Shown here piece after piece: positions 4,105 to 31,225 of a stretch of 32,804 nucleotides of DNA (the stretch's first letter is position 1; each line of letters starts with the position of its first letter). The translations under genes were made by a program, and so were the position numbers. Below the pieces are notes generated by a model. It was not told where the DNA came from and made no database searches. It was given only the letters and a program-made list of their open reading frames with translations. The stretch is from NCBI GenBank assembly GCA_002789635.1, contig PFTQ01000061.1, forward strand, positions 1 through 32,804, read 5' to 3'. This DNA is from Candidatus Aenigmarchaeota archaeon CG_4_9_14_3_um_filter_37_18 (GTDB lineage Archaea; Aenigmatarchaeota; Aenigmatarchaeia; CG10238-14).

Positions 4105-5376
4105 TCATTTCTTCTTCATCTTTCTGAACACATAATTAACAGGGTTCTTTAAGCCTTCACACCGATCATCTTTAGTCTCGCCTAGTACGCTTTTGTAGTA
4201 ATTGTCATTGTCGCAGTTTGGCGGAAGCAGATTTCTAGGCTGCCTCTTATGCCATCTTAATTGAGTCGTGATATAGTTCTTTGGCAGAGGCCTGGGATTT
4301 CTCTGGTTCCATTCTTCCATTTCCTTTTCGATCTTTTCCCATGGCCACCCCATGTTTTGGAGGAATGTTGCCAGCACAAACACAGACCTTTTTCTTCCGT
4401 CTGGAATGCCTTGAAGGATTTTGAGAATGCACGGGGGGAAGTATTTTTCAGGCACTTCTTTCAGTTGCCTCCTCGGGCCTTTGTACTCTTCCTTTTCTTC
4501 TTGCCTGCCATACTTTTTACTCCAATCCAATGCCTCAACCAACAGCCCGCCAGCTTCTGCCAGCTTTATCTCACCTGATAGAAATTTTTTTTCTACTTTT
4601 ATTTTCCAAGAGCTTGCGTCTTCTTTCTGGAACTTATCTAACTGGGATAATAGAATAGGCAAACTGACAAGCAGGGATTTTTCATGCAGGCTATAAGGAA
4701 GGCGGAACATATGCCTAGAAGAGGCAACCATGCTGTCGATCTCAACCAACTTTAATGGGTTAATACCTTCCTCATCTATGCAATCATCTATATTCTTTCC
4801 AACCCTTTCTGCAAGCTTAAGCGGGTTATCCAATTCAAGAAATCTTTCTCTAAGCGTGTCTTTAACATAATCCTTCAGGTATTCAATCACAGCTTTTGGA
4901 GCTTCAGGGTACATCTTCTCTATTTTTTTATCGTCTATCCTCTTTGGGAAAAATTCGAATGGTATTCCTATGTGAAAGCCTTTGCCGCCAGTGCTTTTAA
5001 TAGAATAATTTTTTATTCCATGGTCTTCAAGAGCTTCGCAGAGTGTTTTAACAGTTATTTTTGAAAGCTGAAAATCCGGGCAGTCTGGATCTATTATTAG
5101 GTCCCAACCCACTCTTAGGCTGTCGAGCTGCTGAGGAGCCATCCCAGTTTCCAAAGACATAGGATTAGACCATCTCTCGACTGAGCCATGAAAACTGACC
5201 ACTCCTTTCTTGACCATCTCTACGATATCATCTGGGTAGGCAAGGATGTTAGGCCTTTTGTCAAAGCTGCCATTTTCGTAGACTCCTACTACTTCCCGTT
5301 TTTTTGATTCTTCTAGCAATGCATCCTGCACATCTTTTTTTGAGTAGTACCTCAACACTTTCGAGAAGTTGTTCAT
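4105..5376 (-). CDS. Archaeal DNA primase: PriS-like catalytic domain fused to a PriL-like C-terminal domain
   Basis: PriS-like NGSFDKRPNIL...LRVGWDLIIDPDCPDF...KSTGGKGFHIGIPFEFFPKR; C-terminal PPCILKILQGIPDGRKRSVFVLATFLQNMGW...LRWHKRQPRNLLPPNCDNDNYYKSVLG...DRCEGLKNPVNYVFRK resembles the PriL Fe-S domain. Confidence 0.8.
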   Translation of the reverse strand: MNNFSKVLRYYSKKDVQDALLEESKKREVVGVYENGSFDKRPNILAYPDDIVEMVKKGVVSFHGSVERWSNPMSLETGMAPQQLDSLRVGWDLIIDPDCPDFQLSKITVKTLCEALEDHGIKNYSIKSTGGKGFHIGIPFEFFPKRIDDKKIEKMYPEAPKAVIEYLKDYVKDTLRERFLELDNPLKLAERVGKNIDDCIDEEGINPLKLVEIDSMVASSRHMFRLPYSLHEKSLLVSLPILLSQLDKFQKEDASSWKIKVEKKFLSGEIKLAEAGGLLVEALDWSKKYGRQEEKEEYKGPRRQLKEVPEKYFPPCILKILQGIPDGRKRSVFVLATFLQNMGWPWEKIEKEMEEWNQRNPRPLPKNYITTQLRWHKRQPRNLLPPNCDNDNYYKSVLGETKDDRCEGLKNPVNYVFRKMKKK

Positions 5377-5464: not shown

Positions 5465-5767
5465 GTGTTGAAGTTGACAAAAAAGGGCAATATTGATAGA
5501 TTGACAAAAAAAATAATTCCAATACTTAGGCAGCACGGTGTAGTCAAAGCTGGGGTTTTTGGCTCAATTGTCAGGGGCGAAGCTACAAAAAAAAGTGATA
5601 TAGACATTTTGATTCAATTTAAAGGAAGAAAGAGCCTATTGGACCTTATAGGCTTGGAATTAGAGCTAGAAAAATCATTAAGAAGGGACGTAGATCTTTT
5701 GACTTATAATTCTATTCATCCGTTATTGAGGGACAGGATCTTGAACGAAGAGGTAAGGATCATATGA
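5465..5767 (+). CDS. mntA: MNT-type minimal nucleotidyltransferase antitoxin (MntA-like)
   Basis: GSIVRGEATKKSDIDI matches GSx10DxD; overlaps the downstream HEPN gene; GTG start. Confidence 0.85.
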   Translation: MLKLTKKGNIDRLTKKIIPILRQHGVVKAGVFGSIVRGEATKKSDIDILIQFKGRKSLLDLIGLELELEKSLRRDVDLLTYNSIHPLLRDRILNEEVRII

Positions 5768-6120
5768 AGAAAGATTCTGAAATTTTTATTAGGCATATTC
5801 TTGAGAATATAGAGAAAATAGAAAAACATACAAAAGAAGTCGAGAAAAAGAAATTTTTCGAAAAAGAAGAAATTCAAGATCTGGTGATAAGAAAATTAGA
5901 GATTATTGGCGAGGCAAGCAAAAACCTGCCAAAAGAATTTAGAAATCACCACAAAGAAGTCGAATGGAATAAAATAGGGGGGTTAAGAGACAAATTAATT
6001 CATCACTATTTTGGCGTTGATCTGGATCTAATATTTGATATTGTGAAAAAAGATTTGCCAGAGCTTAAAAAGAAAGTTAAAGATATCTTAAAAGAAATAG
6101 AAGAGAGTAAAAAAACCTGA
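5764..6120 (+). CDS. hepT: HEPN (DUF86) toxin, HepT-like
   Basis: RDKLIHHYFGVDLDLIFDIV contains the Rx4HxY motif; paired with MntA-like gene. Confidence 0.85.
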   Translation: MKKDSEIFIRHILENIEKIEKHTKEVEKKKFFEKEEIQDLVIRKLEIIGEASKNLPKEFRNHHKEVEWNKIGGLRDKLIHHYFGVDLDLIFDIVKKDLPELKKKVKDILKEIEESKKT

Positions 6121-16852: not shown

Positions 16853-17191
16853 TTACTGAAGGGGTATATCTCTTAAAGTATCTAAAGCTTCTGGAGTTAG
16901 TTCATTTCCTGAAAAGAGACAGCCATGGCAAAAACCATTTCTAGTTAAATATTCAGCAATTGTATTTTCGGTTCCATCAGGTCTGGCTTCAATGAATATC
17001 TCTAAAGCAGCTCCATGAATAAGACGACCAAAATATAAATTTTCCCTTAAATTTGAATATTGTGCTAAAGAACCTAAACCACATCTGACTCTATGCAAAT
17101 CATCATTAGCATCCCTGATGGTATCTTGTTGACCATATATATTTGAGTAGTCCCGGCAGGATTCGAACCTGCGTCTAGAGGTTACTCCCAA
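16853..17191 (-). CDS. Hypothetical ORF 3' of the tRNA; annotated start lies inside the tRNA and must be wrong if coding
   Basis: Open frame ...NLYFGRLIHGAALEIFIEARPDGTENTIAEYLTRNGFCHGCLFSGNELTPEALDTLRDIPLQ; no ATG between tRNA and body; TTG candidate near LHRVRCGL. Confidence 0.35.
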   Translation of the reverse strand: MGVTSRRRFESCRDYSNIYGQQDTIRDANDDLHRVRCGLGSLAQYSNLRENLYFGRLIHGAALEIFIEARPDGTENTIAEYLTRNGFCHGCLFSGNELTPEALDTLRDIPLQ

Positions 17192-17255
17192 TTCACGTCC
17201 AGAGCCTCGTATTCAAGGGTTTAAATACCTTGCTTGACCGCTACACCACGGGACT
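17149..17255 (-). tRNA. tRNA-Gln(CTG) with two putative introns (17212..17230 and 17183..17198)
   Basis: Acceptor AGTCCCG/CGGGACT, T arm GCAGG-TTCGAAT-CCTGC, anticodon loop CTCTGGA, 72-nt mature product after removing 19-nt and 16-nt insertions. Confidence 0.8.
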
Positions 17256-27120: not shown

Positions 27121-27999
27121 ATGGGAATAATAATCCAAAAAATGATGGGATGGGTTTTTATAGTAGGTCTCCTAATCTTTTTTTCCGGCTTAAGTAGCTT
27201 AAATTTAGCTGAAAAATTACTTGCTTTTTTTGTGATAATTTCAATAGGCTTATTCGCTCTTCGATTAATCACAAAGGATCTCATACCAAGGGATAAGCTG
27301 GAAATGGAAATTAAGAAAGTTGACGAGCTTAAATCAGATGCTATAAGGGATGTCTCACATGAATTCAGAAACAATATCTCTTTCATTTTCAATGCTGTCG
27401 GCTTGCTAAAAGATGAAGTTGAAAAATCCAGTCCTGACAAAAGAAGAATAAGAGAACTCTTTAACACGATATCCATGTATTCCAGAAGGTTTGAAAGCCA
27501 AATATCCTCTATCCTGCAGTTCGGGATGCTTGAAAGAATGGAAGATACAGAAAAGGAGAAAGTGGATGTCCCAGCTATTATTAATAATGTTGTGAAGGAG
27601 CACGGGGAAGTTGCCAAAGAAAAAGGATTGAAGATAATAACTAAAATCGAAAAGGTTCCTTACATGCTTGGAAATTCTGAATTAATAAGGACACTAGTCA
27701 GGAACTTGGTGAGCAATGCAGTTAAATTCACTGATAAAGGCTGTGTCAGGATCGCCTGCAAAAAACAGGATAATGATATGATGATATTGGTTGAAGATAC
27801 TGGGGTGGGAATAAAGAAAGAGAATATTGAAAAATTATTCAGGCCATACTCAAAGCTTGACCCGCTCAAGGATGGGATTGGCGTCGGCTTGGTGATATGC
27901 AAAAAGATTGTTAACCTCCATAAAGGAACGATTAAGGTTGAATCAAAACTTGGAAAGGGGACTAAGTTTACCATTCTAATACCGATTAGGGCTTGCTGA
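27121..27999 (+). CDS. Membrane sensor histidine kinase
   Basis: Two N-terminal TM helices; DVSHEFRNNISF H-box; LVRNLVSNAVKFTDKG N-box; VEDTGVGIKKENIEKLF; GIGVGLVICKKIV. Confidence 0.93.
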   Translation: MGIIIQKMMGWVFIVGLLIFFSGLSSLNLAEKLLAFFVIISIGLFALRLITKDLIPRDKLEMEIKKVDELKSDAIRDVSHEFRNNISFIFNAVGLLKDEVEKSSPDKRRIRELFNTISMYSRRFESQISSILQFGMLERMEDTEKEKVDVPAIINNVVKEHGEVAKEKGLKIITKIEKVPYMLGNSELIRTLVRNLVSNAVKFTDKGCVRIACKKQDNDMMILVEDTGVGIKKENIEKLFRPYSKLDPLKDGIGVGLVICKKIVNLHKGTIKVESKLGKGTKFTILIPIRAC

Positions 28000-28044
28000 A
28001 TAGGATAATAGATATTTATTTTAAGAATCCCAATATTCTAAAAT

Positions 28045-28410
28045 ATGGTAAAAATACTGATGGTAGAGGACTCTGCTTTTGAGAGGGAGGGAATCAAAAA
28101 TTTCCTGAGGAAATATAATTATATAGACGTAATTGAAGCAGTTGACGGGTATGAAGGGGTCAAAAAATACAAGGAGCAAAAGCCTGATTTAGTTTTATTG
28201 GATTTGAAGCTTCCTGGAATGATGAATGGCTTTGATGTTTTCAGGGAGATCAGAAAAATAAACCCTTCTGCTAAATGCATAGTTGTGAGCATCAACAGGT
28301 CAGACGATATAATAAAGAAAGCCATGGAGATGGGGATAAATTATTACATTGACAAGCCAGTCACAGAATCGAAGCTTATACCTGTTATAAAAGAGGTGCT
28401 TGGGAAATGA
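28045..28410 (+). CDS. CheY-like response regulator
   Basis: KILMVEDS...DLVLLDLKLPG...VVSINRS...YIDKPV. Confidence 0.93.
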   Translation: MVKILMVEDSAFEREGIKNFLRKYNYIDVIEAVDGYEGVKKYKEQKPDLVLLDLKLPGMMNGFDVFREIRKINPSAKCIVVSINRSDDIIKKAMEMGINYYIDKPVTESKLIPVIKEVLGK

Positions 28411-28766
28411 AAAAAATACTGATTGCCGACGACTCCTTTTTTGTAAAGAAATCCTTGACAGATATTTTAAACCATGCCGGCTATAAAAATATAATCACGG
28501 CTTCTGACGGAGCTGAGGCGATTGAAAAATACATAAAAGAAAAGCCTGACCTTATTTTTTTGGATATTATAATGGATAAAAAAAATGGGATTGAAGTCCT
28601 TGAAGAAATCAGGGAAGAAGACACTGAAACCCGTGTGGTGATGCTGACAATAATTGGGCAGAGGGAAATTTTAAGCAGGGTCTTAGCTCTTGGAGTTTCA
28701 GAATATATTGTGAAGCCTTTCAACGAGGAGAGAATCCTGTCTGTCGTAAAAAAAATTCTTGAATAA
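28407..28766 (+). CDS. CheY-like response regulator
   Basis: KILIADDSFF...DLIFLDIIMDKKNG...VVMLTI...YIVKPF. Confidence 0.93.
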   Translation: MKKILIADDSFFVKKSLTDILNHAGYKNIITASDGAEAIEKYIKEKPDLIFLDIIMDKKNGIEVLEEIREEDTETRVVMLTIIGQREILSRVLALGVSEYIVKPFNEERILSVVKKILE

Positions 28767-29421
28767 AGTGGTATTTTTGGCTGAGATAAACAAGCAATTC
28801 CTTGAAGAAAGCAAAATGAAAGAAATCATCACCAAGAGCGCAGAAGATATGATAGAATCATTGTCAACAATCATGAACAAAAAACTGAATATAATTAGCG
28901 TGGATATTCTTGACTTGAGATTGGAAGATGTAATTCAAAAAATTGGAAAGCCTGATGATATGCATGGATGCATTCAGGTGGAAATCTTCGGAAAATCTGA
29001 GATAAAGAATTCAATGCTGGGTCATTTCCTGCTGCTTATGGATCATGAAAGCATGAAAAAATTCATATCTCTTGCCGGAAGAGAAGAATCTGATGGGTTT
29101 AAAAAACACCTAGACTTTTTCAGGGAGGTTGGGAATATAACCTCCGGATCTTTTTTGAGATTAATTTCTGAGTCGCTTAAATTCGAGTTCAGGGAGTCGC
29201 TGCCAGATTTTTGCTATGACATGCTTGGATCTTGCATGGACTCAGTCTTATGCTCGATTGCTGCTACATCAGAGAAAAGCCTGATTTTTAAAGCTGTTAT
29301 AGGAATGGATGGCTTGAAAATGAATGCAATGCTGCTGTTTTATCCGGATATTTATAATTTGATTGATTTAGTGAGGGAGTCAAGTAAACAACCCACGTTT
29401 AAAAACGGAGGCTTTCCATAG
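28759..29421 (+). CDS. CheC/CheX-like phosphatase
   Basis: DFFREVGNITSGSFLRLISESLKFEFRESLP exactly fits Dx3Ex2Nx22P; TTG start overlapping the CheY gene. Confidence 0.8.
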   Translation: MNKVVFLAEINKQFLEESKMKEIITKSAEDMIESLSTIMNKKLNIISVDILDLRLEDVIQKIGKPDDMHGCIQVEIFGKSEIKNSMLGHFLLLMDHESMKKFISLAGREESDGFKKHLDFFREVGNITSGSFLRLISESLKFEFRESLPDFCYDMLGSCMDSVLCSIAATSEKSLIFKAVIGMDGLKMNAMLLFYPDIYNLIDLVRESSKQPTFKNGGFP

Positions 29422-30735
29422 GTGATTCAAAATGTTGCACAGCAATTTTAAAACCAACCGCATCTGGACGGAAGAGCAAGTTTACTTTTGCTCCAGTCTT
29501 GGAACCCTGGATAGAACTCAAGTTAGTGAGACTGTGAGTAATGTTCCGCTCCAAGACAGATTTTATAGCAATAGCCAAAGAGGCTTTTCTGTCGCTATTC
29601 ACGACCTGACCACACTTCCTGCATTTATACAAAACATAATTCACCGAACTATGCCCATTATTGATTTCACCGCATTTGTAGCACCACTTGGAAGTGTGAT
29701 AAGGATCAACCTCGTGAACAGGAACTTGAAACATTTCAGAATTAGATTTAAGGAATTCTGTGAATTTACCATAAGGAATTATGTTGATTTTTTTGTTAGC
29801 TTTTTTGTTGAATTGGCCTCTTCTGCCTTTCAAATTCTTAAGCTTTTCAACAGAAATATAGGCGTTGTAAGATTTGGCAAGATTAATAATTTCTTTTGCA
29901 ATTTGACCGCTTCTTGTTTTAACAAAATTAAATTGTTTGTGTTTAAGCCTTCTCAAACTCTTTTTGGCTCTATCAGAACCCTTATCAGCAAGGCTTTTGA
30001 GATAATCTCTCCTTTTTGTATATTTTCTTTGCCTAAAAGCAACATCACGACCAAAATAGAGCTGTTTAACTACTTTGGAGTTTTCAATGTCAAAAACAGA
30101 AACAGCAGCAAGAGTAGAAGAGCCAATATCAACACCTACAACATATTTTTGGTCGATTGTTTTTTTAGCAAATTCTTTTTCGAGAACTACAGAAATTCTA
30201 CCATCCATCAAAAGAGAAATGTTGTCAAAACTCCAGCCATCTTTAAGAAACATTTGAAATCTTTGAAATTGCTTGTCAGTCTTGACAGGAAGAACAAAAG
30301 TCTTTTTAGGGGAATAAGTAACCTTAAAGCATGGATTTCCTCTTTCAGTCTCAATAAACTTAAACCATCTTTTGTTAAGCCTGATAGAGCATTTAGTGAA
30401 TTTACAACCTTTACTAAGAATATCTTTTCTGCTTTTCCAGATATCTTTTCTAGCTTCTTGAACAATATCGCTTGGAAGGAAGGAGGTTTGTCTTATGTTT
30501 GAATATGTCAGATGGTGTAGATGCGTAGCTGAAAGTGCTAAAGGCAAATCTAAACAGTGCTGGTCAAGAACTTTCAAATATTCGGAAAAGAAACTGTTAA
30601 ATATATTAGACTTATTTCTTGTTAATTCTAAATTATTTAAAACTATGCACTTTCTCACAATCTCACTACTATTGATTAGGAGCAGGCATTCTAATAGTTT
30701 GCCGCAATTCCTCCCATGCCTAAAGAACATGGGTT
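29388..30735 (-). mobile_element. Lone TnpB element inserted between the cheC-like and cheD-like genes
   Basis: End hairpins on the minus strand: CCTCCGTTTTTAAACGTGGG (3' side) and ACCCATGTTCTTTAGGCATGGGAGG (5' side). Confidence 0.65.
29399..30730 (-). CDS. tnpB: TnpB (IS200/IS605 OrfB, IS1341-type), no tnpA nearby; true start probably downstream of ORF start
   Basis: RuvC motifs GVDIGSSTLAAVSV, SVEKLKNLKG, NSDRKASLAIAI; zinc ribbon CYKCG...YKCRKCG. Confidence 0.93.
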   Translation of the reverse strand: MFFRHGRNCGKLLECLLLINSSEIVRKCIVLNNLELTRNKSNIFNSFFSEYLKVLDQHCLDLPLALSATHLHHLTYSNIRQTSFLPSDIVQEARKDIWKSRKDILSKGCKFTKCSIRLNKRWFKFIETERGNPCFKVTYSPKKTFVLPVKTDKQFQRFQMFLKDGWSFDNISLLMDGRISVVLEKEFAKKTIDQKYVVGVDIGSSTLAAVSVFDIENSKVVKQLYFGRDVAFRQRKYTKRRDYLKSLADKGSDRAKKSLRRLKHKQFNFVKTRSGQIAKEIINLAKSYNAYISVEKLKNLKGRRGQFNKKANKKINIIPYGKFTEFLKSNSEMFQVPVHEVDPYHTSKWCYKCGEINNGHSSVNYVLYKCRKCGQVVNSDRKASLAIAIKSVLERNITHSLTNLSSIQGSKTGAKVNLLFRPDAVGFKIAVQHFESPMESLRF

Positions 30736-30751
30736 TCCTTGAGGCGGTTCT

Positions 30752-31225
30752 ATGAATAAAATAGAGTTAAAGATGGGGGAATCAGTGGTTGTGAAGGAGC
30801 CCTCGGATATTGAGTTCAAGGGGTTGGGAAATTCCATAATTGTCTGCATGTTCGAGGATTACTCGAGAATAGGGGCTATGGGCCATATAATGATTCCCAC
30901 TCAGAGTTCTGCTTATAAGGAAGCCCCTTTCAGGCATGGCAGCAAGGCTATACAATATATGGTTGATAAAATAGAAAATTTAGGCGGGATCAGGCGGAGA
31001 ATTCAAGCCAAGATAATCGGGGGCGCTGTTTTATTCAAGAGATTCCCAGAAGCCGGCAGCAATGGAGAAAAAATAATTGCATTTGTTAAAAAAAGGCTGG
31101 CGGAGAAGAAGATATCTGTGGCTGCTGCGGATGTGGGCGGGGATTGCGGCAGGTCTGTGAAATTTGACAGCGAGACCGGCAAGGTTACTGTTAAAAAGAG
31201 CAATGGCGAGGTATTAGAGATTTAG
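30752..31225 (+). CDS. cheD: CheD-like protein, predicted to lack the catalytic Cys
   Basis: GLGNSIIVCMFEDYSRIGAMGHIMIP aligns without gaps to CheD GLGSCVGVVLYD...GLVHVMLP; C-terminal DVGGDCGRSVKFDSETGKVTVK. Confidence 0.85.
   Translation: MNKIELKMGESVVVKEPSDIEFKGLGNSIIVCMFEDYSRIGAMGHIMIPTQSSAYKEAPFRHGSKAIQYMVDKIENLGGIRRRIQAKIIGGAVLFKRFPEAGSNGEKIIAFVKKRLAEKKISVAAADVGGDCGRSVKFDSETGKVTVKKSNGEVLEI

Follow-up and report, generated by a model that had tools for sequence, protein, structure and literature searches.

How a glutamine tRNA gene that is interrupted twice, once at the canonical position in the anticodon loop and once in the D-stem, can still yield a functional tRNA, and which enzyme would cut its precursor, are the questions raised by a 108-nt tRNA-Gln(CUG) locus on the minus strand (17255..17148) of the window, that is, of the whole 32,804-nt stretch of DNA analysed here. 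The host belongs to the Aenigmatarchaeota (DPANN) and not to the Thermoproteota. An Infernal-type check via Rfam, proposed by an earlier note on this DNA, placed a match to RF00005 at exactly the above coordinates and strand: a tRNA with two long insertions, scoring 36.6 bits (E 2.5e-4) and thus above the gathering score of 29. ARAGORN did not detect the gene. Its parts (Table 1) were delimited mainly by a custom parser, which cuts out up to two segments, scores the cloverleaf left behind as well as a bulge-helix-bulge (BHB) motif per junction and ranks all solutions; the two introns listed are its optimum among all one- and two-intron solutions, and the exons and introns, when rebuilt, give the genomic string. 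The mature product comprises 72 nt plus A73 with the anticodon CTG, a standard tRNA-Gln with intact acceptor, D and T stems and an intact anticodon loop. Its one mismatch, C27-U43, is the same that had been read from the sequence before, and coordinates, strand and both intron sequences likewise agree with the earlier note. Within its genome, it is the lowest-scoring tRNA above the threshold. Scans for sigma-70 promoters and terminators found nothing; such scans do not apply to archaea.

Table 1 Parts of the tRNA-Gln(CTG) locus and of its two BHB motifs, in window coordinates
Feature	Coordinates	Strand	Details and evidence
Exon 1, positions 1-24 (AGTCCCGTGGTGTAGCGGTCAAGCA)	17231..17255	-	parser and homologue alignment
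Intron 1, AGGTATTTAAACCCTTGAA, 19 nt	17212..17230	-	site 24/25 (D-stem 3' strand); eight homologues without the insertion; BHB
Exon 2, positions 25-37 (TACGAGGCTCTGG)	17199..17211	-	contains anticodon CTG; parser and homologue alignment
Intron 2, ACGTGAATTGGGAGTA, 16 nt	17183..17198	-	canonical 37/38; parser; 37/38 introns in Gln(CTG) of G011 and G020
Exon 3, positions 38-72 and discriminator A73 (ACCTCTAGACGCAGGTTCGAATCCTGCCGGGACTA)	17148..17182	-	Rfam alignment and parser
BHB 1 central helix, 5' strand CAAG	17233..17236	-	followed by 5' bulge CA|A, 17232..17230
BHB 1 central helix, 3' strand CTTG	17214..17217	-	followed by 3' bulge AA|T, 17213..17211
BHB 2 central helix, 5' strand CTCT	17201..17204	-	bulge GG|A, 17200..17198
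BHB 2 central helix, 3' strand GGAG, one G-U	17185..17188	-	bulge TA|A, 17184..17182

Elsewhere in the window, genes for a histidine kinase, response regulator(s), a weak CheX/CheC match and CheD stand in a row (27121-31225), which is interrupted on the opposite strand by a TnpB-like gene (IS605 OrfB/Cas12f1-like, 29399-30730). A nucleotidyltransferase gene (MNT-like) adjoins a HepT-like gene at 5465-6120, the typical arrangement of MNT-HEPN toxin-antitoxin systems, and a single protein encoded at 4105-5376 on the minus strand matches both the small and the large subunit of DNA primase, consistent with a DPANN fused primase.

At both introns, the junction lies in a 4-bp central helix between two 3-nt bulges; the outer helix of BHB 1 has 2 bp only. 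Shuffling intron 1 in place restored the central 4 bp together with the inner 3 bp in 0.02% of the trials, and for intron 2, a 4-bp and a 2-bp helix recurred in 1.1%. Judged from the product alone, the boundary of intron 1 is ambiguous by 1 nt, as C|AAGG..TTGA|A leaves an identical product; the BHB geometry settles it as CA|AGG..GAA|T. Free-energy folding of the precursor favours a competing 8-bp hairpin that extends across intron 1's 3' splice site; BHB 1 is absent from the minimum-energy fold, its pairing probability is about 0.06, and forcing it costs 1.2 kcal/mol (about 6 kcal/mol for both motifs).

Homologues without insertion 1 provide a stronger test than shuffling. A T-arm/acceptor pattern and BLAST served to retrieve tRNA-Gln(CTG) genes from relatives. 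When nine Gln(CTG) genes were aligned with MAFFT, the eight homologues showed a gap in place of insertion 1, and this gap coincides precisely with the 24/25 junction proposed. The congener G001 has GGTCAAGCATA where the gene studied has GGTCAAGCA^TA, so that the spliced product matches the intronless homologues. Two BHB introns, the first in the D-stem and the second at the canonical site, as proposed in the earlier note, are the best reading, both junctions being confirmed by relatives that lack the insertions. The gene is intronless in G001 as well as in G004, G006, G007 and G009, carries an intron at 53/54 in the congener G002, at 15/16 in G005, at 21/22 in G042 and at canonical 37/38 in G011 and G020, and intron 1 (24/25) was found in no other sampled species. 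Distributed over these five sites, or missing, Gln(CTG) introns turn over quickly, and intron 1 is therefore most simply explained as a recent gain. Older than these are the shared introns of two leucine tRNAs: those at 30/31 and 37/38 of Leu(TAA) are common to the own genome, G001, G002 and G005, and the 30/31 intron of Leu(CAA) to the own genome, G001, G006, G007 and G009.

Could the locus instead be a decaying gene copy, with intron 1 inserted at random and never spliced? The C27-U43 mismatch, the lowest tRNA score and the competing hairpin would all suit such decay. Nevertheless, stems and anticodon loop are intact after splicing, chance seldom produces BHB 1 in shuffled introns, and many other tRNAs of the genome contain like introns. 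Another intact tRNA-Gln(CTG) gene, named by the earlier note as the observation that would speak against its reading, is absent from the 891-kb assembly (85.6% complete), in which Gln(TTG) is the only further Gln gene detected. We consider decay to be improbable, and still more so an origin of the insertion as a relic of a mobile element integrating at tRNA genes, a route proposed for the tRNA-Thr intron of Caldiarchaeum (PMC3293823): the tRNA has a polysaccharide-exporter gene and an unassigned short ORF as its neighbours, with no integrase beside it, and intron 1 is both very short and BHB-shaped.

A functional gene with two BHB introns also is in keeping with the remaining tRNA set. Non-canonical introns are present in at least nine tRNA genes of the genome, and about seven genes have two introns. 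Apart from Gln(CTG) with its site 24/25, non-canonical introns are located at 29/30 in Gln(TTG) and Val(GAC), at 22/23 in Ala(GGC) and Ile(TAT), at 30/31 in Leu(TAA) and Leu(CAA) (the latter read by comparison with G001), in the D-loop of Glu(CTC) and near the anticodon-stem/variable-loop boundary of Glu(TTC); the parser rewards BHB pairing, so that in the longest genes (Leu-CAA, Ser-CGA, Met) it is uncertain where precisely the junctions lie. Both introns of Gln(TTG), at 29/30 and 37/38, are common to the own genome and G002, and between the two genomes the inner helix of the former changes from GGTT/AACC to GGG/CCC: the pairing is kept, the sequence is not. Non-canonical introns also occur in tRNAs of G001, G002, G005, G006, G007, G009 and G011. 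Among about 30 introns compared, the best non-orthologous pair is formed by intron 1 and the 29/30 intron of the own Gln(TTG) (AGGTATTTAAACCCTTGAA and AGGTTTTAACCCTATAA; shuffle p about 2e-4 for that pair); both are short hairpins partly dictated by pairing, and transposition is for this reason a lead only. Among the titles and abstracts of the open literature searched, none described tRNA introns for Aenigmatarchaeota.

Two further observations concern the tRNA genes of this assembly. The intron of Ser(CGA) (L029:1547-1601, minus strand) resembles archaeal box C/D sRNAs, with sR14 as the best match (27.4 bits, E 4e-4, below the gathering score), and the introns of Met(CAT), Trp(CCA) and Leu(CAA) (L011, L014, L038) contain CTGA/TGATGA-like boxes, which suggests that some introns may encode methylation guides. 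One tRNA gene (L024:797-914; G000:C50) has a duplicated T-arm, with a run of N between the two copies, and looks like a scaffolding artefact.

Regarding the splicing endonuclease, whose type the earlier note had advised to look up, the genome contains one PF01974 gene, which encodes an alpha-type protein of 180 aa with N- and C-domains (L031:1474-2016, minus strand; G000:C17) and is closest, among named relatives, to proteins of Candidatus Aenigmatarchaeota. Exactly one PF01974 gene is likewise found in each of five family members at 91-97% completeness, and family members with a single alpha gene bear non-canonical introns as well. A profile built from beta-like paralogues of other families of the phylum retrieved only the alpha gene in eight family genomes (incomplete assemblies), but picked up both paired genes in each of two controls. 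No three-unit endonuclease of the epsilon2 type (about 390 aa) was found in the genome or in the family members; epsilon-like enzymes are present in other families of Aenigmatarchaeota. The AlphaFold model (pLDDT 88, pTM 0.86) has the alpha4 EndA of M. jannaschii as its closest structure (TM 0.86/0.89) and, as no second subunit gene was found, the enzyme presumably is an alpha4-like homotetramer. RtcB, the archaeal exon ligase, is present in the genome.

Within the phylum, the architecture of the endonuclease varies (L158-L173): besides alpha-only genomes, there are tandems of alpha and beta-like genes, two-unit fusions of about 364 aa lacking the catalytic Lys, and epsilon-like enzymes of about 400 aa, which possess the full Tyr-His-Lys triad and sometimes occur alongside a Lys-less alpha protein.

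In an alignment with its counterparts from M. jannaschii, A. fulgidus, M. kandleri and N. equitans, the endonuclease retains both the catalytic Tyr (FRVY) and the catalytic His (EHTK) as well as the bulge-binding Arg, and has a Thr at the position of the catalytic Lys (A. fulgidus K287), so that the Tyr-His-Lys triad is incomplete. This is no peculiarity of one genome: Ala, Thr or Ser replaces the Lys in 85 of 85 Aenigmatarchaeota alpha sequences (homologues L044-L130; some species were fetched twice, and two sequences with Lys belong to other lineages), while Tyr and His are kept. Beta-like paralogues also lack the Lys; epsilon-like enzymes have it. In ARMAN-2, Ala at the catalytic Lys abolishes cleavage (PMC12397907), and the sole endonuclease found here, being without this residue, might consequently not be the active enzyme. 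Between Tyr and His, the proteins contain an extra basic loop, RGVxxKKGPK, in which K120 is invariant in a 37-sequence alignment, and K120 may stand in for the lost catalytic Lys. That Aenigmatarchaeota splice many tRNA sites with an alpha-only endonuclease, whose loop K120 has assumed the catalytic role, is to be taken as a tentative proposal, possible but short of likely. Equating the loop with the published Crenarchaea-specific loop was considered and dropped, as the alignment range of the A. pernix alpha subunit puts the Lys of that loop (K44) near residue 29.

The loss of the Lys can also be taken to mean that the introns are the same but are removed by another enzyme with ordinary catalysis, i.e. 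by an (alpha-beta)2 endonuclease with an undetected subunit or by an epsilon-type enzyme encoded in the missing 14% of the genome. Other Aenigmatarchaeota do have a tandem beta-like paralogue or an epsilon-like enzyme of about 400 aa with Tyr-His-Lys intact. Against this, the five more complete family members combine non-canonical introns with an alpha gene only; the beta-like profile gives no second gene in the eight family genomes, yet detects the pairs in the controls; and the beta-like paralogues are themselves without the Lys. On balance we regard such an enzyme as unlikely. As for the locus itself, we are confident that it represents the tRNA-Gln(CUG) gene of this genome with two protein-spliced BHB introns, presumably cut by the alpha-only, Lys-less endonuclease.

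In the mechanism proposed, the precursor would fold around each junction into the 4-bp helix with its 3-nt bulges, both bulges would be cut by the archaeal splicing endonuclease, and RtcB would join the exons to a standard, functional tRNA-Gln(CUG). The sequences themselves show the gene, its junctions and BHB pairing, the relatives devoid of introns, the single endonuclease gene and RtcB; it is inferred from them that both introns would be removed in vivo, and by the only endonuclease found, and splicing in this lineage probably proceeds with the alpha-only, Lys-less enzyme and RtcB. According to the published rule, alpha4 and alpha-prime-2 enzymes go together with a single BHB intron at 37/38, and (alpha-beta)2 and epsilon2 enzymes allow other intron sites (PMC4090602; PMC6379350); Korarchaeum has an alpha-prime-2 enzyme alongside non-canonical introns (PMC4033280). 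The family studied here departs from the rule by intron site, while most junctions still have the full 4-bp central helix, an observation to be treated with care since the parser favours such solutions.

On its own, the tRNA gene adds another example to a known class, and its context outweighs it: non-canonical introns coexist with one alpha gene devoid of a supposedly essential Lys. The lineage therefore offers a natural test case for the mechanism of archaeal tRNA splicing and for the spread of introns, the more so as the same isodecoder, with introns at five sites or none, has diversified closely enough in time to study tRNA intron gain. If the tentative proposal on K120 is true, the splicing endonucleases of archaea would comprise a fifth functional kind, and the spread of introns to non-canonical sites would need neither (alpha-beta)2 nor epsilon2 enzymes. 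Both questions, that of the enzyme and that of intron gain, are directly testable using a single purified protein and a handful of transcripts.

Compared to known systems, the locus is closest to the multiple-intron tRNA genes of Thermoproteales, other Crenarchaeota, Nanoarchaeota and Thaumarchaeota, which likewise have short introns with BHB junctions (PMC4090602, PMC4033280, PMC8450103). Genes of the Thermoproteales type share the combination of 37/38 with sites in the D-arm, anticodon stem, variable region and T-arm, up to two or three introns per gene, fast gain and loss, and similar introns in different tRNAs (PMC4090602, PMC4033280, PMC8450103); they differ in that the host here is an aenigmatarchaeon and the enzyme apparently is alpha-only instead of (alpha-beta)2. 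Site 24/25 is not included in the open-ended list of intron sites given by one review. The alpha4 EndA of M. jannaschii (PDB 1a79) shares the single gene of about 180 aa with both domains, the Tyr, the His and the bulge-binding Arg and is the best structural match, whereas the protein described here has Thr in place of Lys (Ala or Ser in relatives) and the extra basic loop RGVxxKKGPK. In alpha4 hosts, BHB introns have been described at 37/38 only (PMC4090602), in contrast to the family studied here with its non-canonical ones. The alpha subunit of the (alpha-beta)2 enzyme of N. equitans (PDB 3iey_A) possesses a comparable basic loop ahead of the catalytic His (GVIPKKGKRSEREH), and its host likewise has non-canonical introns; N. 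equitans, however, has kept the Lys and makes its beta subunit as a separate protein, whereas the endonuclease of this aenigmatarchaeon lacks the Lys and no beta subunit was found beside it.
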